Part shown: positions 12,412 to 62,927 of the stretch, one piece after another
Position numbering within the stretch: position 1 is the first letter of the stretch
How the letters are laid out: each line of letters opens with the position of its first letter
From: Daucus carota subsp. sativus
Lineage: Eukaryota > Streptophyta > Magnoliopsida > Apiales > Apiaceae
Assembly (NCBI RefSeq): GCF_001625215.2
Contig: NC_030386.2
Coordinates: 22,972,545 to 23,036,544, forward strand
Direction: 5' to 3'
DNA: 64,000 nucleotides
Program-made: the position numbers and the translations under genes
Notes under the pieces: generated by a model
What the model was told of the DNA's origin: nothing
What the model saw: the letters and a program-made list of their open reading frames with translations, nothing else
The model's database searches: none

Positions 12412-12769
12412 GAGACCATCTCCAATAACGTTGGTTAAAATCGTTGGCTAAATTGGACCTGTAAGACATTATGTAAAATTTGCTGAACTTGTAAGACATT
12501 TTGTTTCAATGATATTGGCTATAATTTAAAAATAGTATGTTATTAATATTTTAAATTGTTAAAATAGAATATATCAGTTCAATATGATAATAAATTATGT
12601 GCAATCTTCCTATAGGTTCGACAAATTTAATCATCCATAGGAGGTTGGCTAAAATTATAGACAACAGAGTGTGGTTGGAGAATGAGTTTTTAGAGAGGTT
12701 AGCTAAATTTTTTATTTTTAGTATGCCAACTCACATTTTACCTAAAGGTTTTGATAGTTGGAGATGCTC
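12412..12769 (-). mobile_element. Tourist-like MITE, copy A (diverged)
   Basis: This is the reverse-orientation, diverged copy of the family at 50743, 51438, 59881 and 62262. It keeps the internal words ggacctgtaagacattatgt, tcagttcaatatg and ccataggaggttggct, and ends in gttggagatgctc. Its left terminal repeat has decayed to gagaccatctccaa and no target duplication is preserved. It is therefore an older insertion than the others. Confidence 0.75.
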
Positions 12770-25246: not shown

Positions 25247-26742
25247 CACTCCAATCACTACCCACAAAATCCCAAATCTTCACCAGAACATCCCACCACA
25301 CAACCTAAATTCAGCTAATCCTAACTACAAATCATTAAAAATCCTCCCATTTCGACACAACCCCACATCTACAAATCAATCAAAACCCTACAATTAATTT
25401 TTAAAAAAAACCATCAAAAATTAACCTCAATCGCTTCACAAATTCTACAAATAAACAACAATACACAAAAACAATCAAACCCCATTTCAATCAAACCAAA
25501 TCTAATCAACAAACACACACTCACATACAAGATCAAGTCAAAGCGGGACCCACCAAACATAGAAAGGCTTCCTGTTGTTCTTGTGACCCATTTGCACAAA
25601 TGACTCATAGTTCCTAGAAACCCATTTGCATCTCCTTGTAGTCACACTAATGATCTGCAAGAATTGAACAGATCAGCTAGAAAAACATATGTAGATGTAA
25701 TAGAGATGATAAAGAGAATTTGCAGTAGAATTATAATTACCTTCATAAAAAGGAAACGTAGGAGTGAAGGAGCAAAGAAGGGGTTGATATGTTGAAAAGG
25801 TAAAGTTAACGTATGTTTGTATAAAGTCGTAGAGTCTGTCTTGTCAATTGCGAGAACAGTGTACGACTGCAAGTCTACTATCAATTGTTTCCCGCAATAA
25901 TTCAGTTAACTTTTTCGTTATATTTCTTTTAGTACTACTTTTTCATATATATTATTTTTATAAACTATTAATTCACGATCTTTTATTTTTAATATTTATT
26001 ATAGACACATGTGAATTATAATATTTGCTATTTGCTATTTGTATATGACTTAACAATTTATCCATATATTCTTAATGCATGCTAGTGAAGGCCCCAAAAA
26101 TACTCCAAAATTTACCCATTTTTTTTTGCCTACTCCACCGACCCGAGACCCGTTAACCCATCTGCCCATGTCAGTTTGTTCCTTAATTTATGCCTCTTAA
26201 TTCAAATTTCGAATCACGGAGATTAACCCATTTACCCATTTCAGTTTTTTCCTTATCTTCCACCTCTTATTTCGAATTTTGAATTACCGATTTTCGTATG
26301 GATCGGGGCTGCGATCTTCAACCATCGCCATACTTTTGATTTCTTCCCACTTTGTAATCCACTGTTTCATTCACTCTGTTCAAAACTATTATTGACAAGG
26401 AGTTTTGATCATAATCAGCAAGCCATGGCAACTGAAATTGCCATGCTATTCCATCCTCGCAGGGAACTCGATCGATAGTGAGCCGTGCCGGCGTTCTGAG
26501 ATGCCGTTTATGTGGCATCCTCTTGGATTCATACGGGCTTCAACCTGTGATATCAAATCTGTGATACAACAATTGATATCAAACGGAGATCAAGCATATT
26601 TCAAGCGGGGACAACTGATTTATCTGTCATATTTTTCCCTCCGTGGGACAGTTAATTGTAAAATCATAACCGTGTCGCCGGTGTGTAGTATCTTCGTGTT
26701 TCATCAAGTTTGATTTAAAGGTCGGAAACGAATTACTCTCAG
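25247..26742. other. PEPKR2 upstream region and intergenic
   Basis: The first several hundred bases are the likely promoter and 5' UTR of PEPKR2, rich in C/A tracts. 26140-26290 contains two imperfect tandem copies of about 70 bp (gttaaccc..cccatttcag..aatttcgaatt). No known protein could be matched to the open frame at 26405-26713. Confidence 0.4.
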
Positions 26743-27858
26743 ATGCCGTCTCTCCCTTCGATAAAAGATGGTAAATTTTTCCACACCCATATTATCCATC
26801 TTGCAATGTTGTGATGTGTTGAATGCTACAATATGGTTCAAGAGAATTTGACTTCTTGCAGATAGTTTTTGATTGATGCATATAAGGTGTTTGATTTGTG
26901 TTCTATGTGAGTTTGTTTGATTTTGTAAGATCTTCTCACACTTTTATACTCTTTTTCATTCCAAGTCCCATGTTTTTTCATTCCAGGTCCCATCTTGGGT
27001 GTTAAGTAGATATGATTGTGTAGTACTTCACCTGCTCAACCTTTTTCATTTTTTTAAATATATGTTCAGGTCAAAAGCCAGTGTCACTAAGTGTCCACTC
27101 TCCTTCGTCGTCAGATAAGGGTATTGGTTTGTCTGTATTTTAAATTCAGTCATTTATTTTACTTTAAATTTTTCTCTTCTGCTCTCAATTTGAGTTCTGT
27201 ATGTAGATATTCATTTTCATCTATAATTAATATCACTTGATATTATTTTACATTGTTTCATAAGGATGTATATATAGTTTTGAACTAAATCAATGGCTAC
27301 AATTCGTGGAAGACAATTGTTTCATAAGGATGTATATATAGTTTTGAACTAAATGTTTCTAATGTATCGTTGTTGGTATCTAATATCAACAATTGTCCTG
27401 TTTCACTGTTATATCTTTTTTTTTTCCAGATTCTCTATAGTCCTGCGTTGTGCACACACTAGAAACAACCCTTACTCGAATAGAAAAAGCAAGTACATTG
27501 TGAGCAAGTACATTATGAGGTACAGAGATTTGATTTATATGAATTTCATCCTGTTTTCATTTACTCTCTATATGAATATATGACTTGCTTAATTCCAATT
27601 TTCAGTTACTTTCTCCTTTTCCATTTTTCTCTTTTAGTTCATCTCCGTGCGTGATTACCATCCTCTGTCGAAGATTAACTTTGCATGCTGTCGAAGATTA
27701 AATTTTAAAAGTCAATTCTGATCAATTTTATCGACTTTGCAGGAAATTTTGAGTGGACTGTAGAAAATGTTGCTAAATCAATTGTTTGCATGATGATGTC
27801 GGGTCCCTGTTTAACCTGTTGCGGCACGCTGCAATGGTGTTCAAATGCATACTTCTGA
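26743..27858 (+). CDS. Hypothetical three-exon ORF, 64 aa, in a gene-fragment block
   Basis: Three exon-like segments join in phase: 26743-26770, 27070-27120, 27743-27858. The first two end at GT and the second and third follow AG. The product starts [20 protein letters not shown], continues [20 protein letters not shown] and stops at TGA. It is Ser-rich then Cys-rich and was not recognised. Phase agreement at both junctions is suggestive, but the short length and the neighbouring gene fragments make this more likely a captured piece or broken gene than a functional locus. Confidence 0.3.
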
Positions 27859-28499
27859 TGTACTACAAGAACAGTGGTGGTCATAACTACAGGAGGCAGG
27901 TAACTATTGTACCAGATGTTATCTAAATGCTTTTATACTGCATATTCATGTTAATTAGCATTGACATTTTGCAAGTGACATGGTAAATGAGATAAGGTAA
28001 TTTATTTATTGTGATTTTGTCACTGTTTTGACTCTGCACCAGTTTTGACTGAGATGTATGTTTTGCCGCGGCATAGTTTTGGGTAAATATTACTTCAATA
28101 GTCTTGGTATGTAATCGAGTTGTGTAAGTTACTTGAGAAGTCCATCATTCTTGCAAGTTGAAATTGTCAAAGCAGAGAACCAGATCACCAGCTTGCTTAA
28201 CTCATCAAATGCTACTGATGTTTTTAGTACTTCATAATTTTGAGCAGTGGCATCCTGATCATGTAACACCTGATCATAAAAATTTAAAAGCGTTACACTG
28301 TTCAAGCCGGGTTCAAGTGAGTCGGGTTAGTTCTACATGGTTTTCCGAAAAATATATAACTATGCAGCATCTCCTTTTCTTACCGTTTAAAAGTTTTCCG
28401 TGGCCTGTAAACGATGTGGGACTATCATGTCAATCTAATGTGGTTTCTAATTGGCTAAACATCATTCATTTATCTTCTGTGTTATTTTTTCACTATCAG

Positions 28500-28625
28500 A
28501 TCACTTGCCTAAAGCTCCTGGTACAACTCTACATCAGTTTCTGAGCAATAGGGCAGAGAGAATTCAAAGACAAAAAACTGATCAACAACCGCAGGATGCC
28601 CGGTCAAAAGCTTCAATAAATAGCG
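28500..28625 (+). pseudogene. Unrecognised exon-like fragment
   Basis: After an AG at about 28499 an open frame reads DHLPKAPGTTLHQFLSNRAE, is hydrophilic and helix-prone, and ends at a GT near 28626. The composition looks like real protein sequence, but no family was recognised and no neighbouring exon continues it. It sits 0.6 kb before an ankyrin exon of a different origin. Confidence 0.3.
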
Positions 28626-29228
28626 GTATGGTATCTAATACAATGATCTTTTGGTTTATTAAGGACTACATGTGAGAGTGTATTGAAGTCACCTTTTGAG
28701 TAGTTTTTGAGTGATAATCATAATTATCGAATGAAACCAGAGGTGTCTTTTGATATAGCTTGACCCATCTCAACACCACCGCAAAAAAACTGTAAAAATT
28801 AGAGTTGGTAGATTATTCTTCTCCAGAACCTCCGCAACTAGCTTGGTTATAGAAATAATGATCAATGGTGTCGTGGGAGCACCTTTCCTGCAGACACAAT
28901 AAAGTGAATATCCTTAGTAGCTATTCATTTTTTGTTATGATAAGAAATTAGTTTGTTTAGGATGGATTCTCAGAATTATCAATAAATTTTGAAGTTTAGG
29001 AATATTCTGTTTGATACAGGGCACCTTTCGATTACAAACCGAGCTATAACCATTTTCCACACAAGTAATCATAATGATACCCTTATTTATTTGTGGTTTA
29101 TTCTTTTTTTAGTATTGTAGTTGTAAAATTTTCAACTTCTGATATATGTAACTTAAAAGACAACATGGTTTATTAATCTGGTACACGGGATTGGATTGAA
29201 ATTGTTCTAATTTTGTATACTATTGTAG

Positions 29229-29404
29229 TTGAACGTTTTGCTATCATTAATTTCTTCTGGCAACATGGGGTAGATGTGAATGCTTCAGATCATACTGGAC
29301 AAACAGCATTACACTGGAGTGCGGTGCAGGGAGCTGTTCAGGTTGCAGAGATCTTGCTCCAAGAGGGTGCCAGTGTTGGTGCTGCTGACATGTATGGATA
29401 TCAG
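29229..29404 (+). pseudogene. Ankyrin-repeat exon fragment, TIP1/PAT24-like protein S-acyltransferase
   Basis: The frame reads [20 protein letters not shown], then [12 protein letters not shown] and ADMYGYQ, ending at a GT donor. This ankyrin repeat block is very close to the plant DHHC-type S-acyltransferase TIP1 ([26 protein letters not shown] is the family pattern). An AG precedes the segment. No other ankyrin repeat, membrane helices or DHHC domain follow, so it is an isolated exon, not a gene. Confidence 0.72.
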
Positions 29405-29954
29405 GTTGATATCTCATTGTATTAACATTATTTATTCTCAGAAGATATTTTCTATTACTGAGTCGAGTTTTATCCAAAGATTATAAACATTGACTTACAT
29501 ATACAAGTGTATATTTTTGTTAAAAGAAATCTATTAATATAAAAGCAGCACTGGTATACATGACTATAAATAAATATTTGAGGATTTTATAATTTACCGT
29601 ACATATGACTCATGCATCTGTGCTCTCATGATTGAAATATGTATTCCAGCTCATGTGATTGGCAGATTTGGAGCTTGATTTTATAAATCTATATGATTTA
29701 GCAACGAGAATTAACAAGGTTGTTATGCTGGAGTTTCTTGCGCTATGTTGAATATTAACATGGAATCCTTGAGACCTAATAATATGCAGGCTGCTAACAA
29801 TAATAATAGGATGGGTAACGATAGTTTTAACTGATACTGCATATTGCAAAGAGTGCTTGGATATCTTTTTATGTACTGTATATTTGCTTTATAATTCATA
29901 TTCTTCCTCTGGACCTCATCTATACAGCAAGAAGTCTTCTTGGCAAATTTCAGA

Positions 29955-30286
29955 CATGGTATGGATGTCTTGGACAGAGAGAAGTGGAGATATATAAGTG
30001 ATTGGTATTGTTTATATATATGTTTTTTTTGCCAATTGACATGAATTGTATTAGTATATTTGTGAAGAAAAAAGTATTAGTATAGGTATTATATTAAATG
30101 CTCTTTTTTCTTTTTCTTCTGATTAGCCGTGGAACCTCCGTTGCTGTAAGCTCAATTTTTCTTGGACTGATATTGGTTGGCAGAGCAGCCTTTGTTCTCC
30201 CCTTATCATTCATTTCCAACTTGGCCAAGAGATCTTCCAGTGATAGAATTGAGCTAAAACAGCACGTTCAATCCTACAGATTCTAG
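29955..30286 (+). pseudogene. NHX-type Na+/H+ antiporter fragment (two exons)
   Basis: Two neighbouring pieces of a vacuolar NHX exchanger are present. The first (to 30004) encodes GMDVLDREKWRYISD and ends at GT. The second (from 30127, after AG) encodes RGTSVAVSSIFLGLILVGRA, then AFVLPLSFISNLAKRSSSDR, matching the family pattern SPGTSIAVSSI..GRAAFVFPLSFLSNLAKK. The intron between them is kept. Homology ends at about 30270 and a stop follows at 30284, before the conserved WWAGLMRGAVS segment. Upstream helices are absent too. It is a captured or degraded fragment. Confidence 0.78.
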
Positions 30287-32725
30287 GTTTTGTTGGTTAT
30301 GCATGAGTTTGCATGGAACTGACTAGCGCTTCCAATATGTAGGTAGGTTACTATATGGTGGGATGGCCTTATGCGAGGTGCCGTTTATGGCCCTTGCTTA
30401 CAATCATGCAAGTATAAATTATTAAAGAAGTGAGCTTTCTTTCATCAAGTACAAAGCAGTCTGCTAAGATTAATAGATTTATGCATTTTAATTTAAGCGT
30501 TATAGTTTCTTTCGGAATGTATTTCAAGTTTATCTACGTTTTACATGGTTGGATTAAGTATCATTTAATTTTCTTTATAACCAGGGATGCTTTTTGATTG
30601 AAACTTGATATTGATTTTTTTTAGCTACTTTGTTATTTTAATACAAATTACTTTTAATTATTTTGGGTGAAGTATCTAAAGGGACTGCTGAAGCCATTAA
30701 AGGCAAAGGAGCTTACCAGAATCATCAAAGTTTGGGTATATGTGCAAGCATCTTATCTCAGTCATCTCCTTCTATTTAGTGTGTTTCACTCTCAGTCCTT
30801 TTATGTCTCCAAATATATTGTATATGCACAATTCAATTTACATGTTTCCATATTATCTTATTGATTTATTCGAGATTTTGAATGTGTTATGGATTTTCTC
30901 ATTAACATTTGTGAATGTGTATTGGCCGTCATGTTTATCGGGTCTTGATACATTAAATTTGTACTCTGGCCAGTTAAGTATAAATCTTCAATAATAAATT
31001 TTTGCATTAGTTTGTGTGAGCAACCTTTAGAAAGTAGCATGGTTGATATTGTCAGTACTGGCACAAGCTCAAAATTCCAATTTTGATCAACTATTTTGCA
31101 AAGGTTTTAAATGACTGTATTCATTTTTCTAATATTCATGTAAAATAACTGTTAAGATATTAATGGTTATTATTAGAAATTTAAATACATAAATATTAGA
31201 AATATTTGTTGCAGCAAGATTTTCAAACAAGTATGATGAATTCAAGTTACAGGTTTTTGCAATAAATTCAAGTTGCGGGTTTTTGCAGGTGCATTCAAAT
31301 TAAAGGTTTTTACGGGTCAATTGATTAGCATTTGGATAAAGTGTGTTTGTGTATCTTTTTTTTTTTTTTTTTTTGTGTAAGGATGTGATTGTGTATCTTT
31401 GATCCTCTGTTTTAACAATATTATTTAGTTTTTAGTTTGGTAAGTGTGGATCAGTGGTGCAGGAGGTGTTGTATTTTCAGTGCTAATTAATGATCAGAAA
31501 GAAATGCATTGCATTTTATTGTTGATCTGCATGCAGTGAGATGGATGAACTCCTGGAAGGAGCAGTTGAAGACTCCTTTGTTGGCAGTCTTGGCCCGGAA
31601 AGGTCCCTCTTTGCGAATGAACTTCCTCTACTGAAGTCTCTGCTGGCACGGTGTCATGTTTCTGCAGCTATCTATTTCTATGTTTAATATTAGTAGCTAT
31701 CTTCTTTTGCTTTAGTTTCTTGGTTTAGTTTCCGCTCAACAGTGTGTTGCTTTTTCAGTTTCCAGGGCAAGCTTTGGTTTCTTTTGGTTTGCCTCTGGTT
31801 TGTTTTTTTTTGTTACTTTGTCACTGCTGTATATTCTTCCCCATTATCAAGTGTGAGAAGCTTTGTTATATAATATAATCCTGACTTATCAAAAAAAAAT
31901 TTGAGAGGTCTAATATGATATCACTATGTACTTCATTTCCAATGTGTTCAGATTATTATTTATTTTTGCGGTAGAAAAAATAATCATGTTTAATACACGG
32001 ACTGCTTAGTTTGATTTTTATTTTTAGCATGTCATCGCATAAAATATTTTAGTAGTTATGTGATTTTAAATTTTATAATTTATATATAGAAGTAAATATA
32101 TTTTTGCTCTGTTCATAAAGCATTTAAATTGAAATTGATATAAAGCTGAAATAAGAAAAGTCAACGTCAATTATAACTGTGAAATTATCTTTTTTAAGAA
32201 AAATTACTTTATTTAATGAATCTGATTGCATTATTATTTTATTTATCATATTTTGTGAGCTTATTTTGAGAAATAGTTTGGGAGATTTACATGTTTTATT
32301 TTAATATTTTTACTTTCTTTTATTTATCTATCATATTTGTTCTGAAATCAATAAGAATGACTTTATAAAATAACTACACAAAAGAGTTCAGAATTAATCT
32401 CTTTTTAGAAAATTGAAAGTTGTTTAAAGTATATATCAATTAATACTATTTTTTAGAATTAAATAGATTAATTATTAATAATTTATACCAATTCAAAACT
32501 TTTTATATTTACTGTAAATTATATATTTATAAATATAAAAACTGATTGCAAAAATTATTAATTTTACAAATCTTTTATCTCATTTATACTAGAGTACGAC
32601 TAATATGTTTCGAAAAAATATACTACAAAAAAGTATTTGTAAGCATATTAATAATTAATACCCGATAAATGTTTTTTTTTTAAATTAAACTATTCAGAAA
32701 TAACGAAGCTCTTAGCACACGTAGG
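30287..32725. other. Continuation of fragment block; weak exon-like pieces
   Basis: Two short coding-like pieces lack a recognised origin. One is at 30668-30731 (VSKGTAEAIKGKGAYQ in one frame). The other is at 31541-31686 (MDELLEGAVEDSFVGSLGPE, preceded by an AG). 31685-32725 is very AT-rich and shows no gene. Confidence 0.35.
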
Positions 32726-33008
32726 ATGGGCATAATATATTTTGAATTTAACAGTGTTTTATCAATGAAGTATACACACATGTCTAATTCTCTACCATTT
32801 TTTATATTTAACGAAGTTAATAAAATTAAGAAATTTTTACGAGGGTCTAAGCACGCGTAGCGCCAGCAAAATTCCATAGCATTTAACCGTGTTTATCGCT
32901 GCAATATACACACATGTATAATTCCCTATATTTTTTGAATTTAATGAAATTGATAAAATTAATATTTTTTTACGAGAGTCCCCACACGCATAGCGCGGGC
33001 AAAATTCC
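32726..33008 (+). repeat. Tandem pair of Helitron-end-like units
   Basis: Two units of about 140 bp follow one another. Each has cacacatgt.taattc, a t-rich middle, acgaggtct/acgagagtc and a GC hairpin-like word (cgcgtagcgccagc; cgcatagcgcgggc) followed by aaaattcc. The second word is nearly the same as the true-looking Helitron end at 34639-34667, but its last bases are ccctgtt rather than ccctagt. Confidence 0.5.
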
Positions 33009-34220
33009 CTGTTACTAAATGTACAGAACTTACATTTAGTACCAACTCAATAAACAATAGCAGAGCTTTGATTTTGAACTCTTCTAATTTGGTTGATACT
33101 TGATAGAGTTGGTGAAGTAGTTTTGTCCCTGCATAGTAATTTTTAGAGTTTAATCCAGTTTTCATCCCTAATTTCTCAACCAATAAGTTTTGTTATACAC
33201 ATTTCCGAAAAAGCATCCCCTAACTTAAAAAAAAGGATCATATTGCAATTTGCAACCATCAAATTTTTTGTTTTAAGTCGCATCGTTAACATTAAATAGG
33301 AAAGTACATTATCCTCAAACAACTTAAAAAGAAAAAGAAAGAAATAATTATCTCCTTGAAACCATCGATCAGCACATATCTTGCTTCCCTCTCAAACACA
33401 CCTAATAAATCCTAGATATCTCTCTAGATTCAACCTCATAAATTATATTTTACTATGCGAAGTCTCTTACAGGTCACTATATATCTAATTTCCCTTTCAA
33501 ACGCACCTAATGATTCCTGGATAATCTCTCTCCACTCATCCTAATAAATAGAATGTAACTACGCAATGTCGCACTAATGGGTCACTGGCTATCCTTCTTT
33601 GGATGCTATTGATGGTAGAGAAATCCCCAATTATGGTGGTAAAAAAATTTCAAGCTGCAATGTGAAGAAAGCAAAAAAGATGGGACAGAACAAACATGCT
33701 ACATATGCAGGATTTGTGGGATGAAAACATGAGCCGAAAGCTGCATATATATATGCACTTATAAAACTAGGGTGCTCCTCCCTGGCCAGGTTATAAAATT
33801 TCCCTCTTCCAAAGCAAGGTACAGAACTTACATTTTGAGGATGTACTAATTTTGAGGAGGTACTAAATGTTAATAGCTGACCATGAAATAGTAACACGTG
33901 GTATTGTAGTATGCAATAGATAACACGTGTTAGTTACTTTTCCAAATAAACCATTTAAGTGGGAATGAGTCTTTTTTTTTTTTTGGTTAAAAAATCTACT
34001 ATAATCGTATATTCCATATTTAATCTATTATGTTTTCTACTATTTTTGGTTAAATTGTTCATTATGTACACAGGTAACAATTAAAATTATTGCACTAAAA
34101 TATAAACCACTCTTTTTTTTTTGGTTGTGTTATTTTCAAAGATACAAATTATTTTTTTGATGCCTTTTATTTATAAAATGTATCAACACATTTTATGCAT
34201 AGCTTTTTTTTTCGGTGGTG
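33009..34220. other. AT-rich interval with tandem duplications
   Basis: 33379-33590 contains two imperfect copies of about 110 bp (ttccctctcaaacacacctaat / ttccctttcaaacgcacctaat). Short inverted words actaaatgta/acatttagt occur at 33015-33045, and a related gtacagaacttacatttt at 33822. No gene is supported; the open frame at 33631-33897 (minus) has no recognisable features. Confidence 0.4.
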
Positions 34221-34667
34221 CAAAAACAGTCAAAACTGTGGCGAGGCGTGTATAATAATTATACTTAAGTTATTTTTCAGGAGAAAGTAAGTATGTTTTC
34301 ATGATTCAATTAATTTACAAAGTAAGTCATAAGTATCTCCGAATGATGCAATTATTTTTCATAAAATAATGTTACTAAACTCTGAATAATTTTTTTGGGC
34401 ATAATAAACAATTGGATGTATAAATCGGCAATGTGAAGAGGCCTGTATGCTAATTATACTTATGTTATTTTTCAAATGAAAGTAAGTATCTTGACATGAT
34501 ATAGTTAATTTGCAAAGTAAGACATAACTATCGCCTAATTATGCAGTACTTTTCATAAAATGTCGTTAATAACCATCACAAATCATTTTTTGCATAATAA
34601 ACAATAGGATGTATAAATTTTAATATTTCGTAAAAGGAGCTCGCGTAGCGCGGGCATAATTCCCTAG
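34221..34667 (+). mobile_element. Helitron 3' terminus with two 200-bp tandem units
   Basis: Two tandem units of about 205 bp (34221-34425, 34426-34630; shared words attatactta.gttatttttca, gcataataaacaa, ggatgtataaat) lead into a 7-bp-stem hairpin, gctcgcg-tag-cgcgggc (34639-34655, one G:T pair). Eight bases later is CTAG followed by T (34664-34668). Hairpin, short spacer and CTAG/T are the textbook 3' end of a Helitron. The 5' TC end could not be located, so the element's extent is unknown; it may include the gene fragments from 26.7 kb. Confidence 0.65.
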
Positions 34668-34861
34668 TTTTTTTTAATTGTTATTAGCGAGTGAACTTTG
34701 GTCTTTATCCTTGGACCTTGAATTACCGATATTGAAAAAGATATTTGTAAGATAAGTCATAATTTTGTCAATCTCATCAAGTTCAGCAAGAGTATATAAC
34801 TTTTCCCGTCAATTTTCAACAATTTTGTCTGATTCATTATATAATCGTCAATTGCTCTATA

Positions 34862-35118
34862 ATACTTTCTCTGTTTGAATTTATAAGTCAGTTTTTACTT
34901 TTTAAAATCAAATTGACTAACTTTTTATCAAATATTAAAAAATATTTATTTGTTGTTTTACAAAATAAAAAGTTACATATTAAAATAGACTTGATTTACT
35001 TTTTTATGATATTTTTTTAAAAAAAATTCAATTATATAATATCTATAAATTTCAGTTAAAATATAATCAATTTAACTAGTCAAAAATTAAAAAAGTTTTA
35101 TATATTGAGAGTGAGCGA
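34862..35118. mobile_element. Degenerate Stowaway-like MITE
   Basis: The left end ctttctctgtttgaatttat faces a right end whose complement is ctcgctcactctcaatatat. Internal sequence is AT-rich. Ends and internal words (ataagtcag, gtcaaaaatt) resemble the better-preserved Stowaway copies at 61653 and 63743. Target TA is not clear. Confidence 0.4.
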
Positions 35119-35559
35119 GTGATCATCAATCATTCTGTAATTTCTATTTAGGAGTTGCGAAACATATCCTTGGTCGGCTCTCGGTGAATTTTCCGAATCA
35201 CTAAAAATAAATAAAGCTAACATAAAGTTATTAATATTATAAGATCGCAAAATTTTGTAATAAAAGGCCTACAAATTATAGTAACGAATGTGAGAAAGAT
35301 CGAGCTAGATATTAAGTTACATACAATAAATATTAAATCTTGGTGGCTATTATGACAAAAAAAAAAAAAAAAATCTTGGTGGCTATCAAGAAATATAAAA
35401 TATAAAAAGTGAGTCTTTATGAAGTGTTTTTTCTCTTTTCTTTTTTTGAAATTTAAAATTAACACATGCTAAAGTTTAACGCATCATCTATGAATAAGAT
35501 TTTGTATCCATTTTTATGTATAAGTCATTTTACAATTTTACAATTTTAAAGAGGTCATA

Positions 35560-36020
35560 GAAGGAGGGTCGAGCTTCAGCCTGGGTATGATTGCTCGAGA
35601 CCATAACGGAGATTGTTGTAGAGCTAGAACAATGTGCTTTGAGGGCATAGTTTCAGTATTTGAAGCAGAGGCAAAGGGAGTTCTGGAAGCGATAAAATGG
35701 GCTGCTGAAAGAGCTATCTCATATGTTACTTTTGAAACTGATTCGATGCAAACGTTTCAGGCCATTACCAAGGGCACAATGAACTACTTAGAGGTGGGAA
35801 ACATGCTTGAAGATTGCCGCAAGTTGTTGAAGGACCGTCCAGACTTTTCTCTTGAATTTGTTAAAAAACAAGCCAACAAAGTAGCCCATAGTTTAGCTAG
35901 GGTTCCTTGTGAAATTGGTTGTTTCATTGATTTCTTGTCTCCTCCTCATTTAGTGTTGGAGAATATTATGTATGATGCTGCTTTGATTGAATAAAAAATT
36001 TCCATTGGTTTCAAAAAAAA
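35560..36020 (+). pseudogene. LINE RNase H tail (135-aa ORF at 35587-35994)
   Basis: The open frame encodes the C-terminal RNase H-like (RVT_3) domain of a plant L1-type retrotransposon. It has AEAKGVLEAIKWAAERAISY, FETDSMQTFQAI with the conserved ExD core, EFVKKQANKVAHSLARVP and FIDFLSPPHLVLE. A short 3' UTR ends in an A-run at about 36009-36020. The reverse transcriptase and endonuclease are absent, so it is 5'-truncated. It is the longest of three such tails in the window. Domestication of RVT_3 domains is possible in principle but nothing here argues for it. Confidence 0.82.
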
Positions 36021-47723: not shown

Positions 47724-48628
47724 CTGATTGAGCTGAAGAATCAATTGCAGCCCGTTCACACAGTATACGCATCTTAGTGCTAAAATTTGGTTTGCTATGG
47801 TTTTTTATGACAATTCAGTTTGAGTTCCAAGAATTTGATATGCAGTGTCTGTATGATTGTCATAAAATAAAATTGCCCTGTTAGCTAGCGCAGTTGTGTT
47901 AATGTCTTTTCCTATTTCCTGTCTATTTCCTAGTGTTTTGGTAAATTTGGGAGTCCAGTAAATGTCAACTCACATATTAATATCAAGTGTTTCGACAAAT
48001 TTGGGAAGTTAGCGCGGCTTAAATTAGGTATACGTACAGGCTCACAAATATTTCCTATACTCTTATCTATACTCCTATGAGTCCTATCTAGTATCTAGTT
48101 TAGATAAGAGTATATGAATTACCTGTGGGATTTCTACTGTGTTAGACAGAAATCCTAAACGGTGTTATACTCTTGGATGGAAATACTTGCAACTTGTGCT
48201 TATTAGACCGCTCAGGAAAAGGGGAGCTATGTATCTTCCTTCCCCGGTCCTTGTGGAGTGGGGAAGATAGCTCACACTTCTCATCAATACAGGTTTACTC
48301 ACCTGACGATCTAACAAGTAACATTTCACATTTTAAATTACCACTACTTCTATTGACTACTTCAAAAGACGAAACCATTGTTTTGGTCAAGAATTGGTTG
48401 TACACGATACGATGATGGAAACTAATTTTTTCTTCCAAAAAAGAACGCAATTAAATTGGTGAGGCAAAAAATAATTGCTAGACATGTTAACGATGATGAA
48501 ACTAATTTTTTCTTCTAAAAAACGCATTAAATTCGTTAGGCAAAAAATAATTGCTAGGCATTAATCGAAGAAAGATTTCATATATGTTAATAAATAAATC
48601 TGCAAGTATTACACAACCATTATAGATC
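47724..48628. other. 3' flank of BAHD gene and intergenic
   Basis: No gene. 48412-48565 contains two tandem copies of about 75 bp (aaactaattttttcttcyaa ... gcaaaaaataattgctagrc). Confidence 0.45.
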
Positions 48629-49684
48629 GACTTAATTACCAAAAAAACTATTAAACTTATGTAATTTTTTCATTTTAACCATAAAACTAATTTTGTTGCA
48701 GAATAATGCAACTAACTAATATAAAATCTATTTGAGGGAACCCCATTTTAATGAATCTCTAACCATAGTTAATTCAAAATTGACATGGATGTCACATGCA
48801 GTACAAGACATCAAATTTTTTGATTTAATCTTAAAAATTTACTTAATCAATTATACATGCATCATAAGTGAGCTATATTTACATTATTAATATTTATAAC
48901 AATAAAATTTTAAATTATTATCAAGTAAAAAATTAATTTAATTTAATTTATAATTTGTTTTGACTTGTAAGAATTACTGCCATTTTAAAATTTATATATT
49001 ATATATTAATATCATTATGGAATTTTATTTATTATCAAAAAATATAGAATATAAATTGAATTTTTTAGATGAATACTAGTCGAATGAAATTTTATATTTC
49101 AAAAAATTACTAACAAAATGTATAAAGAATCGTTATAGTTTTGAGATTACTGAAGGGTGTTTGCATAATATTTAATAAAAACTATAACGATTCTTTATAC
49201 ATTTTGTTAGTAATTTTTTGAAATATAAAATTTCATGCAACTAGTATTCATCTAAAAAAATCAATTTATATTCTATATTTTTTGATAATAAATAAAATTC
49301 CATAATAATATTAATATATAATATATAAATTTTAAAATGACAGTAAGTTCTTATAAGTAAAAAAAATTATAAATTAAATTAATTTTTTACTTGACAATAA
49401 TTTCAAATTTATTGTTATAAATGTTAATAATGTAAATATAGCTGACTTTTGATGTATGTATAATGGATTAAGTAAATTTTTAAAATTAAATCAAAAATTT
49501 TGATGTCTTGTACTGCATGTGACATCCATGTCAACTTTGAATTAACCATGGTTAGAGATTCATTAAAATGGGTTCCCTCAAATAGATTTTATATTAGTTA
49601 GTTGTATTATTCTGCAACAAAATTAGTTTTATGGTTAAAATGAAAAAATTACATAAGTTTAATAGTTTTTTTGGTAATTAAGTC
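48629..49684. mobile_element. Foldback element, 1056 bp, about 0.5-kb arms, 9-bp target duplication
   Basis: The two halves are near-perfect reverse complements of each other. The left end gacttaattaccaaaaaaac is mirrored by gtttttttggtaattaagtc at the right end, and matching continues inward to ctataacgattctttataca near 49125-49205, leaving a centre of about 40 bp (around 49138-49180). Exact 9-bp flanks TTATAGATC lie at 48620-48628 and 49685-49693. Long inverted repeats with 9-bp duplications fit Mutator-like foldback elements. There is no coding capacity. The right end lies about 100 bp downstream of the AGP stop codon. Confidence 0.88.
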
Positions 49685-49796
49685 TTATAGATCCAACTAT
49701 TACTAGTACTACTATACTCCTATATAACATTAATATAATTAATTCTAATTATTGATAAATAAAATCCTAATTAAAACCCGATAAAACCTCTTCCAT

Positions 49797-50682: not shown

Positions 50683-50742
50683 TATACGCTTCTTTCCTTT
50701 TTGCTATATTTGTTCCTTTTTATTTTTCGACGAAACTACTAA

Positions 50743-51137
50743 GAGCATCTCCAACCATCTAAAACCATTGGCTAAAAAGTGATTTGACATACCTAAAATA
50801 AAAAAATTTAGCCAACAGCTCCAAAAACGTAACTCCAACCATGCTCAGTTGTTGTCTATAAATTTAGCCAACCTCCTATGGATGGCTAAATTTGTCGAAC
50901 CTCTACAGGTCTGTAAGAAAATCTGTAGGAAGATTGTACATCATTTATTACCATATTGAACTGATATATTATATTTTAACAATTTGAAATATTAATAACA
51001 TACTATTTTTAAATTATAGCCAACCAATATAGCCAATATCATTGAAGCAAAATGTCTTACAGGTTCAGTAAATTTTACATAATGTCTTACAGGTCCAATT
51101 TAGCCAACAATTATAGCCAACGCCGTTGGAGATGCTC
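50743..51137 (+). mobile_element. Tourist-like MITE, copy B, TAA target duplication
   Basis: 395 bp with terminal inverted repeats GAGCATCTCCAAC / GTTGGAGATGCTC. Flanked by TAA at 50740-50742 and 51138-51140. The 3-bp TAA/TTA duplication marks PIF/Harbinger-type (Tourist) elements. The interior is non-coding and shared with four other copies in the window. Confidence 0.88.
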
Positions 51138-51437
51138 TAAAAAGGTTATTGCGTGAAAAACAAAACAGCTTTGACGCGCTTTTCCTATCAGAGGATTTCA
51201 AAGTTTTAAGTATGCTTTTTTTTTATCATAATATATTCACTTTAATATCTTTTAGACTTAATTACTAAAAAAACTATACAACTATCATGTTTTTTTTCAA
51301 TTTAACCATAATAGTATATTTATTGCGGGATAATGCAAGTAATTTTAAAAAATTATTTTTAGAAAACCCAATCTCACTAATCCATAATCATGGTTAAGTT
51401 AAAATTGAGATGTATGACACATATATTGTCTAAGTTA

Positions 51438-51832
51438 GAGCATCTCCAACCATCTAAAACCCTTGGCTAAAAAGTGAGGTGGCATACTTAAAATAAAAAA
51501 ATTTAGCCAACAGCTCCAAAAACCCAACTCCAACCATGCTCAGCTGTTGTCTATAAATTTAGCCAACCTCCTATGGATGACTAAATTTGTCGAACCTCTA
51601 CTGGTCTGTAAGAAAATCTGTAGGATGATTGTACATCATTTATTACCATATTGAACTAATATATTCTATTTTAACAATTTAAAATATTAATAACATACTA
51701 TTTTTAAATTATAGCCAACCAATATAGCCAGTACCATTGAAGCAAAATGTCTTACAGGTTCAGCAGATTTTACATAATGTCTTACAAGTCCAATTTAGCC
51801 AACGATTATAGCCAACACCGTTGGAGATGCTC
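51438..51832 (+). mobile_element. Tourist-like MITE, copy C, TTA target duplication, nested
   Basis: Nearly identical to copy B, same length. Flanked by TTA at 51435-51437 and 51833-51835. It is inserted in the left arm of the second foldback element, which dates it as younger than that element. Confidence 0.88.
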
Positions 51833-52106: not shown

Positions 52107-52380
52107 CAAGGGTTGGTTCAACTGTTTAAAGAGGGGACTTGTATCCTTTTGGTCACAGGTTCGACTTCCGAAGAGAGCAGAATTTGTGATTATGCCTCTT
52201 GGACCAGAGCCTGTCACTTAAGTGCAGTTTGCAGGCTATTATGTGAACTCGTGGGTTTACCCAATGCGCCCTACGGGAAAAAAATTATGCCTCTTGGACC
52301 AGAGCCTGTCACTTAAGTGCAGTTTGCAGGCTATTATGTGAACTCGTGGGTTTACCCAGTGCGCCCTACGGAAAAAAAAA
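52107..52380 (+). mobile_element. tRNA-derived SINE with duplicated 93-bp 3' module
   Basis: Starts caagggttggttcaactg, an A-box-like word, with cacaggttcgacttccg as the B box about 50 bp on, and ends in an A-run. The body after the tRNA head (attatgcctcttggaccaga ... gcgccctacggg, then As) occurs twice in tandem, starting at 52191 and 52284, with only a few differences. Target duplication is unclear. Confidence 0.68.
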
Positions 52381-52618
52381 CTGATTGTTTTGTGTGTGTA
52401 CAATGAATTATGTAAATATTTAAAATAAAATTATAAAAAAATAATATTTTAGTAATGTTGTGTATGACATCCATTTAACCATGGTTAGAAATATTATCAA
52501 ATTGGGTTCTCTCAAATACGTTTTCTATTAGTTAGTTGCATTTTTCTGCAACAAAATTAGATTTATGATTAAAATGAAAAAATCACAATAGTTTAATAGT
52601 TTTTTCGGTAATTAAGTC

Positions 52619-54333
52619 TATATTTTACACGAGTGTTATACTGAAAAGAACGGCTTATTTCATATATAAAAGTCTTTCGTCTAATTAGAGGACATGCAGA
52701 AATATTTAAAGAAAATTTAGATTAAAAATTTTGATATTTGAGAAAACTCAACAAAAAATATAAAATTGTGAAAAAAATGAAAAAAGTAAAGTCTGCCGTG
52801 TAATCAGATGTCATGCATGATACAATTCTAATCTTCTTTGATTTATGTGTCAACTGGACTTGTGTTTGGTTTATTAGGATTGATCGATATCCTTATTCAG
52901 CATGATACAATTCTAATATTTCTTTATCTAAATCACATATCTTTTAGTTTGAAGCTTTCTATGACTCAATTAATTGATTGCAATAATTTAGTTAACTAAT
53001 TAATTCTGAAATTGTCTAATTACATACATTAATTATTGATTGACATAATTTTAGAGTAATATTAATTGGGGAAGTTACATATTTTGAAATAGAGTACTAT
53101 TATATTTCCGTCTTTGTGCCATAATTGGTGGCTCTTGTATCCGTAAAAAGAAGGATCATTTATGATGACTTGTTGCCATTTTATGATGGATTTTTGGACC
53201 TTTCATGGTTAATGAATTAATTGGTGTATACCAAATTTATTGTGTCTTAATAAGGTATATTATAGCGTCATTAATGGTTGGTTGATTGATTGGTGTATAC
53301 CAAACTTGTATTGTATTAATAACAAGAAGCAGGCATAATCGTGATATATTTGTTTGATAAGATTTTGTCTTATATTTGATCAGATATATCTTAACTATGT
53401 TTTCAATATTCAAACTTTATTTTTATTTTAAAAATTTGTTAGTATATATGTCAGTTACTTTCATATGGGGTTTTTATTATGTATCTAACCAAAGAGATCT
53501 CTTATCTCTTTGGTGTAGATTTCTTTAATTTGTTTAATATTAGTTCTGATTTACTCTTTTATTAAATAAAAACTTATATTATATTCTTATATTTTTCTTT
53601 AATTATGGGTTTTTTAAACCTTTTCATCTGTCTTATTAATTAGTTTTATTATTTTATTGTCGGTATGTACTTATTATGTTCTTGTGTATTGTATTTTTTC
53701 AGGGCAGGAGAGTGGAGGAAATAATGATACATACTCCGGATCATCTATTTTTAGTCTGTTTTATAATGGATGTAATTTTGTAGGGCACTCTTTTTCCCCC
53801 TGAGTTTTTTCTCACAGGGTTTTACTCTTGAGGGGTTTTAACGCGATCCTTTTTTGTCGGTTATCTCTTCTGACTTGAAAGGCAATGTTATCTAATCATC
53901 CGGAGTATGTACATACTTTCGGTTAGATGATATACTTTCTTGAACGAAGAAACTCAGTACATCCGGATTTGTAACTTTAGATCTTGCTTATACAACCGTT
54001 TTTTGTGACAAAAAAAAAAAATTGTCATGCATATATGGTTCCCCGAATTTGGTTTAAAAGATATAAGATCCGCAAAAAGGAAGAATAGAAAGAGCGGGAG
54101 AAAAAAACTCCAAATACAAAAGAAAGAGCGAGAGAAATTACTATAAGTGCAAATTGCATAATTAATTTCGACAAGTTAAATAAATTTATGTGCAGATACA
54201 TACATTTTGTAAAAGTTTAATTAGTTCTTTTTAGATGGGCTCTGCGAGTTGTGGAGTTGGGGTGAACTTGAGCATGGTATACTAAAATCTAGTTTTTCAG
54301 AGTAACCTTTAGGTACAAAAACAGAAAGGAACT
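52619..54333. other. Intergenic with retroelement 3' relic
   Basis: 52815-52920 and 53215-53325 each hold diverged tandem words (catgatacaattctaat; ttggtgtataccaaa). About 53760-54022 looks like the 3' UTR of a retroelement: cactctttttccccctgagt, cagggttttactcttgaggg, ending in a 13-A run at 54010-54022. No coding region remains. Confidence 0.45.
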
Positions 54334-59659: not shown

Positions 59660-59880
59660 GCGTGTAAGAATGGAAAGAGATGCAAGTAGAATGAAGAATC
59701 AAAGAAACCGCTGATTTGATTTATTTTGGAATTAAATATTGTATACGTGCGGGTCTTTTTTATCTGGATCACCCACCAGTATTTCTGTATGATTCAGTTT
59801 ATACAACATCGTGGACATGTATGATTAACTTCTGTGATGTAGATGATGAGCTCAGGTCAGATTCAGATAATTTGTAGTAA

Positions 59881-60275
59881 GAGCATCTCCGACCATCTAA
59901 AATCCTTGTCTAAAAGGTGAGCAGGTTTACTTAAAATAAAAAAATTTAGCCAACAGCTCCAAAAACTCAACTCCAACCATGCTCACCTGTTGTCAATAAA
60001 TTTAGCCAACCTCTTATGGATGGCTAAATTTGTCGAACCTCTACAGGTCTGTAAGAAAATCTGTAGGAAGATTGTACATCATTTATTACCATATTGAACT
60101 GATATATTCTATTTTAACAATTTAAAATATTAATAACATACTATTTTTAAATTATAGCCAACCAATATAGCCAGTACCATTGAAGCAAAATGTCTTACAG
60201 GTTCAGCAAATTTTACATAATGTCTTACAGGTCTAATTTAGCCAACGATTATAGCCAACGCTGTTGGAGATGCTC
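59881..60275 (+). mobile_element. Tourist-like MITE, copy D, TAA target duplication
   Basis: 395 bp, almost identical to copies B and C, with ends GAGCATCTCC / GGAGATGCTC and TAA on both sides (59878-59880, 60276-60278). It lies about 330 bp upstream of the RIBA1 start codon, in its promoter region. Confidence 0.88.
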
Positions 60276-61884: not shown

Positions 61885-62927
61885 TAGGTTATATCATAAG
61901 CATAATTTGTTTATGAACGCGCCTCACCATGAGCAGGGGACCCAGTATATATCTGATAAGCATGATTCATTTGTTCGCAAAATAAGTAAACGTGACCAAA
62001 TCAAATTATGAGAAAAGTTTTTGAACAGGAGAAAGTCCTAAGTGAGAGCCGAGAGGTAAGAAGGCGGCGGTTGTCACCAACGACCTGTGACCAACACGTC
62101 AGATTATCAAAAGGAGCCAATCAGGCACAGGGCACACCACATGAAGGGGCATGGGAATTGCTCAATTAGTCGGGGTTTTTTATTTTATTTTTAAGATCTC
62201 GATAATGAATTGTTGTCTCCTACTATATTTCTTGTTATTGATAAATTTAAATCAGCCCATAGAGCATCTCCAATCATTTAAAACCCTCAACTAAAATGTG
62301 AGTGGTGTACTGAAAATAAAAAAATTAGCAAATTTCTTGAAAAACTCATACTCCAGTCAGACACAGTTGTTGTCTATAATTTTACGTATATAAGAATATC
62401 TATAGAAATATTGCACATCATTTGTTACCATATCGAACTGATATTTTCTATTTTAAAAATTTAAAATATTAATAACATATTTTTTAAATTATAACCAATC
62501 AATATAGCCAGTACCATTGAAGTAAAATGTTTTACATACACAAAACATAAATTAATAATACTATTATAAGAATATAGAACAAAAGAAAAATCCAGCAAGG
62601 ACAACTAGTAATTAATGATGTCAACCTACGATAAACTAATATCTAAATATATAAATAGTTTATATTTGTTTGAATATAGGGCATGATATGGTATATTTAG
62701 AAAAATACTCTCCCATTGGTTGGATCAAAAATTTGGAGTATTATATACTTCATCTCATAATTAACATTCTAATTTTTTAAAATTTTTCCACACATATCCA
62801 AACTTATGAAAAACATATTTGTAGATATTGTTTTTTTCTTGTTTATTGTTTTGTACAAAAATAAGAAGTTCAAATTTTTATACAAAACAAAAAATACGAG
62901 AAAATAATGTCTACGAGTATTGTCATG
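61885..62927. other. Intergenic with truncated MITE
   Basis: Apart from the Tourist copy at 62262 no coding or RNA feature is seen. 62740-62905 is AT-rich with a weak Stowaway-like look. 62904-62927 is the left part of a tandem-duplicated unit that the hAT element interrupts. Confidence 0.4.
62262..62535 (+). mobile_element. Tourist-like MITE, copy E, 3'-truncated and diverged
   Basis: Starts gagcatctccaatcattta and follows the family through cagttgttgtctataattt, tcatttgttaccatat and atagccagtaccattgaag, then stops matching near 62535. The right terminal repeat is missing and there are internal deletions. Confidence 0.7.

Follow-up and report, generated by a model that had tools for sequence, protein, structure and literature searches.

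Fragments of unrelated genes on one strand upstream of Helitron-type 3' ends: a probable decayed, gene-capturing element

How did fragments of unrelated genes, with their introns kept, come to lie on one strand ahead of a Helitron-type 3' end? The block that raises this question (26743-34667) lies within the window, the 64,000-nucleotide stretch of DNA that was analysed. Its surroundings are AT-rich plant DNA with ordinary genes, namely an NPH3 gene (15.3-17.3 kb, minus strand), a Ser/Thr kinase gene whose main exon lies at 24.48-25.28 kb (minus), a RING protein gene (38.3-39.4 kb, minus), a BAHD-type transferase gene (46.4-47.7 kb, plus) and a GTP cyclohydrolase II gene (56.1-56.6 kb, minus). 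The block holds decayed gene fragments on the plus strand, introns included, together with three Helitron-type 3' ends. With slightly better than even confidence, we read it as a decayed non-autonomous Helitron that carries, on one strand and with introns kept, pieces of two or more host genes.

Outside the block, a Pfam scan covering 56 of the 58 open reading frames (ORFs) of at least 88 aa gave one match to DHBP synthase. A 156-aa ORF at 35524-35994, lying 0.86 kb beyond the Helitron end, matched RVT_3 (RNase H-like) with E = 1.9e-22, and there was a second RVT_3 match among the other window ORFs. No Rfam match reached gathering scores, and a tRNA search found none. Several repeats lie elsewhere in the window. 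A dispersed repeat of ~300 bp beginning GAGCATCTCC was found at 50742-51041, 51437-51736, 59880-60179 and 62260-62536 and, inverted, at 12413-12667; two of its copies are just 695 bp apart, and it looks like a small non-autonomous element. Nested inverted repeats at 48605-49685, with arms of 120-208 nt and 92-98% complementarity, are arranged round 49.15 kb and have a related further arm at 52475-52642, together forming a large hairpin-forming element. A 95-bp tandem (two copies, 97% matching) occupies 52189-52379.

Within the block, 85 stop-to-stop ORFs of at least 42 aa on both strands of 25900-35600 were searched against Pfam, and an ankyrin ORF gave the sole convincing match at E <= 0.05; the further matches at this threshold, PRESAN (E = 0.012) and CTK3 (E = 0.037), are probably chance. 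The ankyrin-repeat exon lies at 29229-29404 on the plus strand, has both a splice acceptor and a splice donor, and matches Pfam Ank with E = 3.8e-7 for its 45-aa core. The original prediction had described an ankyrin exon of a TIP1-like S-acyltransferase; the ankyrin part was confirmed (E = 7.6e-9 once upstream codons were added), and the source is presumably TIP1-like, in agreement with plant S-acyltransferase 24.

Separated from this exon by 523 bp, and also on the plus strand, is an NHX-type Na+/H+ antiporter fragment of three exons and two kept introns (29928-30412). Acceptors, donors and codon phases agree across exon A (29928-30004), exon B (30127-30265) and exon C (30347-30412, in phase 0 to exon B), and the frame of exon C is lost between 30385 and 30387. 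Joined, exons B and C matched Pfam Na_H_Exchanger with E = 0.021, which became 0.015 when the continuation in the window itself was added and 0.0038 across the frame break, values none of which reaches Pfam's curated cut-off; exons A, B and C together gave E = 0.051. Exon B by itself had no Pfam match, and all eight PDB sequences that it retrieved at E <= 10 were Na+/H+ exchangers (best E = 0.64). A joined 87-aa NHX query, one residue of which was wrong, had no PDB match at E <= 10, and an NCBIfam search with NHX likewise returned no match. Exon A was recognised by its phase and splice sites, and its family was taken from exons B and C. Together, the Pfam and PDB results and the exon phases make it very likely that this fragment is NHX. 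Both NHX exons and the intron claimed beforehand were recovered, and the frame-broken exon C, which had been missed, raises the count to three exons and two introns. The ankyrin and NHX fragments derive from unrelated genes, the only two source genes identified in the block. Since introns are present, capture from spliced mRNA is excluded.

Upstream of the ankyrin exon lie three phase-consistent, plus-strand exon-like pieces (26743-26770, 27070-27120 and 28500-28625) that are not established as gene-derived and had no Pfam or PDB match. These had been put forward as a phase-consistent three-exon ORF. Their phases do agree, yet this is what chance leads one to expect: when 26000-29228 was dinucleotide-shuffled and chains of up to three exons reaching the ankyrin exon in phase were sought, a chain of at least 205 nt, as long as the real one or longer, was present in 40 of 40 shuffles, and the ORF was rejected as evidence of a gene. 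The longest possible chain in the real region, 649 nt, was matched by 2 of the 40. Within 27252-27354, a 39-bp stretch recurs 64 bp further on as a perfect copy, probably through a recent duplication.

Codon scores were compared with two sets of null stretches, the second being narrower, picked afterwards and drawn so as to exclude two possibly coding regions. Scores as high as those of the pieces at 26743, 27070 and 28500 were reached by 25%, 5.7% and 7.5% of the first set and by 28%, 5.1% and 1.8% of the second. The first set decides little, because 8.1% of its stretches equal even the ankyrin exon, a score reached by 0 of 288 stretches in the second. Pieces at 27.7 kb were equalled by 12% and 23% of the first set and by 3.5% and 14% of the second, while a 105-aa ORF at 26396 and a 135-aa ORF at 28137 scored below most first-set stretches, the second set being too small at these lengths (17 and 2 stretches). 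The additional coding-like piece that had been predicted corresponds to 41 codons at 31538-31660 on the plus strand. Its codon score lends it partial support, being matched by 3.4% of the first set and by none of 871 overlapping stretches of the second, and family matches do not: its best Pfam match (E = 0.2) was unrelated and PDB gave none at E <= 10. The same PDB threshold yielded nothing for any of the unplaced exon-like or coding-like pieces.

Joining seven exon-like pieces leaves 227 codons open, from an ATG at 26743 to a stop at 30431-30433. The block could on this basis be a recently formed chimeric gene that a Helitron assembled from pieces of at least two unrelated genes, perhaps transcribed from captured promoter DNA, a reading to which we give hardly any credence. 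Because both between-source junctions would agree in phase by chance in about 1 in 9 cases, the upstream chain is chance-expected and exon C has lost the NHX frame, we regard the 227-codon frame as a curiosity.

Helitron 3' ends carry CTRR, mostly CTAG, preceded by a GC-rich hairpin of 16-20 nt that lies 10-15 nt before the end (PMC6591975). Both the CTRR and the hairpin spacing are found at 34639-34667 on the plus strand, where a 7-bp GC-rich stem (one T.G pair) closes a 3-nt loop and CTAG comes after a further 8 nt; the 17-nt hairpin (34639-34655) ends 12 nt short of the last base, and CTAG (34664-34667) is directly followed by a T at 34668. Helitrons integrate between an A and a T and do not duplicate their target; of these two bases, the T was observed on the 3' side. 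This Helitron-type end is real and far above chance, as the hairpin and CTAG/T terminus of the original prediction had implied: its exact pattern has one match in the window versus 0.00 expected. Allowing up to 3 mismatches, a 14-nt core had 3 matches versus 0.18 expected, a number reached in 0 of 100 shuffles, and a general scan of the window for a hairpin plus CTRRT found 3 sites versus 0.15 expected (100 shuffles), with CTAG only at 34667. The folding energy of the hairpin is unexceptional (z = -1.02; equalled by 28 of 200 shuffles). Eight contigs in public viral (1) and prokaryote (7) collections matched the 3' end; with GC of 0.54-0.68, they were set aside as GC-rich chance matches.

The other two core matches are the ends of 133-bp tandem units. 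This plus-strand pair (32746-33012) has a decayed Helitron-type 3' end closing each unit, with ATAG at 32876-32879 and CTGT at 33009-33012 where CTAG is expected, and at these ends the canonical 7-bp stem differs from the predicted fold. Within the window, these two decayed ends are the relatives of the 3' end, and they, at 32879 and 33012, are the first Helitron-type ends met 3' of the gene fragments, before 34667. A second plus-strand array, two copies of a ~195-bp unit at 34237-34618, stands just ahead of the intact end, and with it the downstream tandem units that had been claimed were found in both places. The 14-mer TACAGAACTTACAT occurs three times (33022, 33820 and 21286) and 19-nt inverted arms lie at 33032-33050 and 33852-33870, which suggests that the decayed 3' ends and the intact one have a small element between them.

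Base composition bears on where an element would begin. GC falls from 0.41 (31601-31800) to 0.15-0.24 (32001-32800), a sharp drop at ~32.0 kb, as if a separate AT-rich element started there, and both tandem arrays lie within the AT-rich part. The Helitron ends could accordingly belong to a short AT-rich non-autonomous Helitron (~32.0-34.67 kb), or to two nested ones, beside unrelated pseudogene fragments, and the remaining 2.6 kb with its arrays does resemble small non-autonomous Helitrons such as rice Mothra (PMC4683698). We consider this unlikely, while giving it real weight: it offers no vehicle that would have put two unrelated, intron-bearing fragments together on the same strand, and internal pseudo 3' ends also occur in large maize elements (PMC3288121).

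The search for a 5' end singled out no site. A Helitron 5' consensus had 6 matches in the window versus 7.64 expected, none of them in the block; sequence shared with the tandem units was at chance level (13, 56, 20 and 40 of 60 shuffles as high); and none of the A|TC sites between 25300 and 26742, 39 in all, stood out. A direct match of 13 bp (26279-26291 and 34718-34730) was rejected as a target duplication, 66 of 500 shuffles having an equivalent; when the comparison was narrowed, with limits picked after the match was seen, the figure was 7 of 2000. These three unsuccessful 5' searches would fit fragments joined by filler DNA or by segmental duplication as a double-strand break was repaired, a process known to occur in plants, in which case the Helitron ends would be coincidental neighbours of the joined fragments. 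We judge this improbable, given that the identified exons are all on one strand and that the next 5 kb downstream contain three Helitron-type ends.

Plant gene fragments are also captured by Pack-TYPE elements, and we asked whether long terminal inverted repeats surround the fragments. None were found: the longest inverted pair in 25600-35600 measured 47 nt, was 70% matching and contained A/T runs, and between 25301-27000 and 31601-35300 the longest exact shared stretch, direct or inverted, was at most 13 bp. There was no LTR-like direct repeat among 20 of the 28 repeat families listed for 25600-35600, and CACTACA was absent from both strands of 25-36 kb. Capture by a terminal-inverted-repeat element (Pack-MULE or Pack-CACTA) or by a retrotransposon is thus very improbable. 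The 85 block ORFs (at least 42 aa, 25900-35600) also contained no Pfam Rep/helicase or RPA domain, and with no Rep/helicase coding sequence among them the block does not qualify as an autonomous Helitron.

Set side by side, unrelated exons on the same strand with introns kept, three Helitron-type ends downstream and the failure to see long terminal inverted or long terminal repeats argue for one element, and the 5' end that was not singled out, the GC drop at ~32.0 kb and the lack of a Rep/helicase domain in the block ORFs argue against it. The membership of fragments and ends in one Helitron, and the way in which they joined, is therefore stated here as our best reading. The predicted Helitron capture is accordingly supported in part: same-strand, intron-bearing fragments do lie upstream of a textbook 3' end, and the 5' end was not found.

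Were it one decayed Helitron, the element would lie upstream of the Ser/Thr kinase gene and end at 34667, with its 5' TC start falling between the 5' end of that gene (~25.3 kb) and 29.2 kb. Going by the literature, transposition would have started at the 5' TC and run as far as the 3' hairpin, and a weakened terminator could have been skipped, so that flanking DNA was carried along and a terminator further downstream was used. In Helraiser experiments, a missing or skipped 3' hairpin led to transduction of flanking DNA (PMC4778049). Skipped or duplicated termini would each account for the pair of decayed 3' ends that precede the intact one. Since read-through places captured DNA between the old and new 3' ends, and the fragments lie upstream of all three, the gene fragments would be earlier captures. 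A single Helitron would make the block a further case of rolling-circle exon shuffling in an AT-rich plant genome, one in which decayed terminators kept in order would make the capture history readable.

Plant Helitrons are known to capture genes, to carry more than one fragment each and to gather fragments step by step, as described in maize (PMC3288121) and Brassica napus (PMC11986588) and reviewed in PMC13317346. Because these phenomena are already described in plants, the block is likely a case of a known kind, and no feature of it goes beyond the maize and Brassica accounts. Among maize helA Helitrons, multiple termini occur in 28.7%, and 99 of 100 sampled internal pseudo 3' ends were without an intact CTAG (PMC3288121). 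The block is similar in having several gene fragments, an intact CTAG at the last 3' end alone and internal ends without CTAG, whereas its fragments are more decayed and its 5' limit was not found. In the Brassica napus account (PMC11986588), several captured fragments were present in 35.25% of gene-capturing elements, and captured stretches averaged 230 bp (92-1270); the exons of the block measure 66-176 bp and its captured-looking stretches 176 and 485 bp, and it shares an AT-rich setting that is eudicot-like in composition, but the Brassica elements were found genome-wide with their donor genes, while the block was read from one window. Rice Mothra elements (PMC4683698) are high-copy, with defined ends, whereas the 5' end of the block was not found. 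At 1.25-2.7 kb with tandem blocks, one of ~20% GC, they nonetheless share with it a 3' hairpin plus CTAG, tandem-repeat blocks and very low GC.
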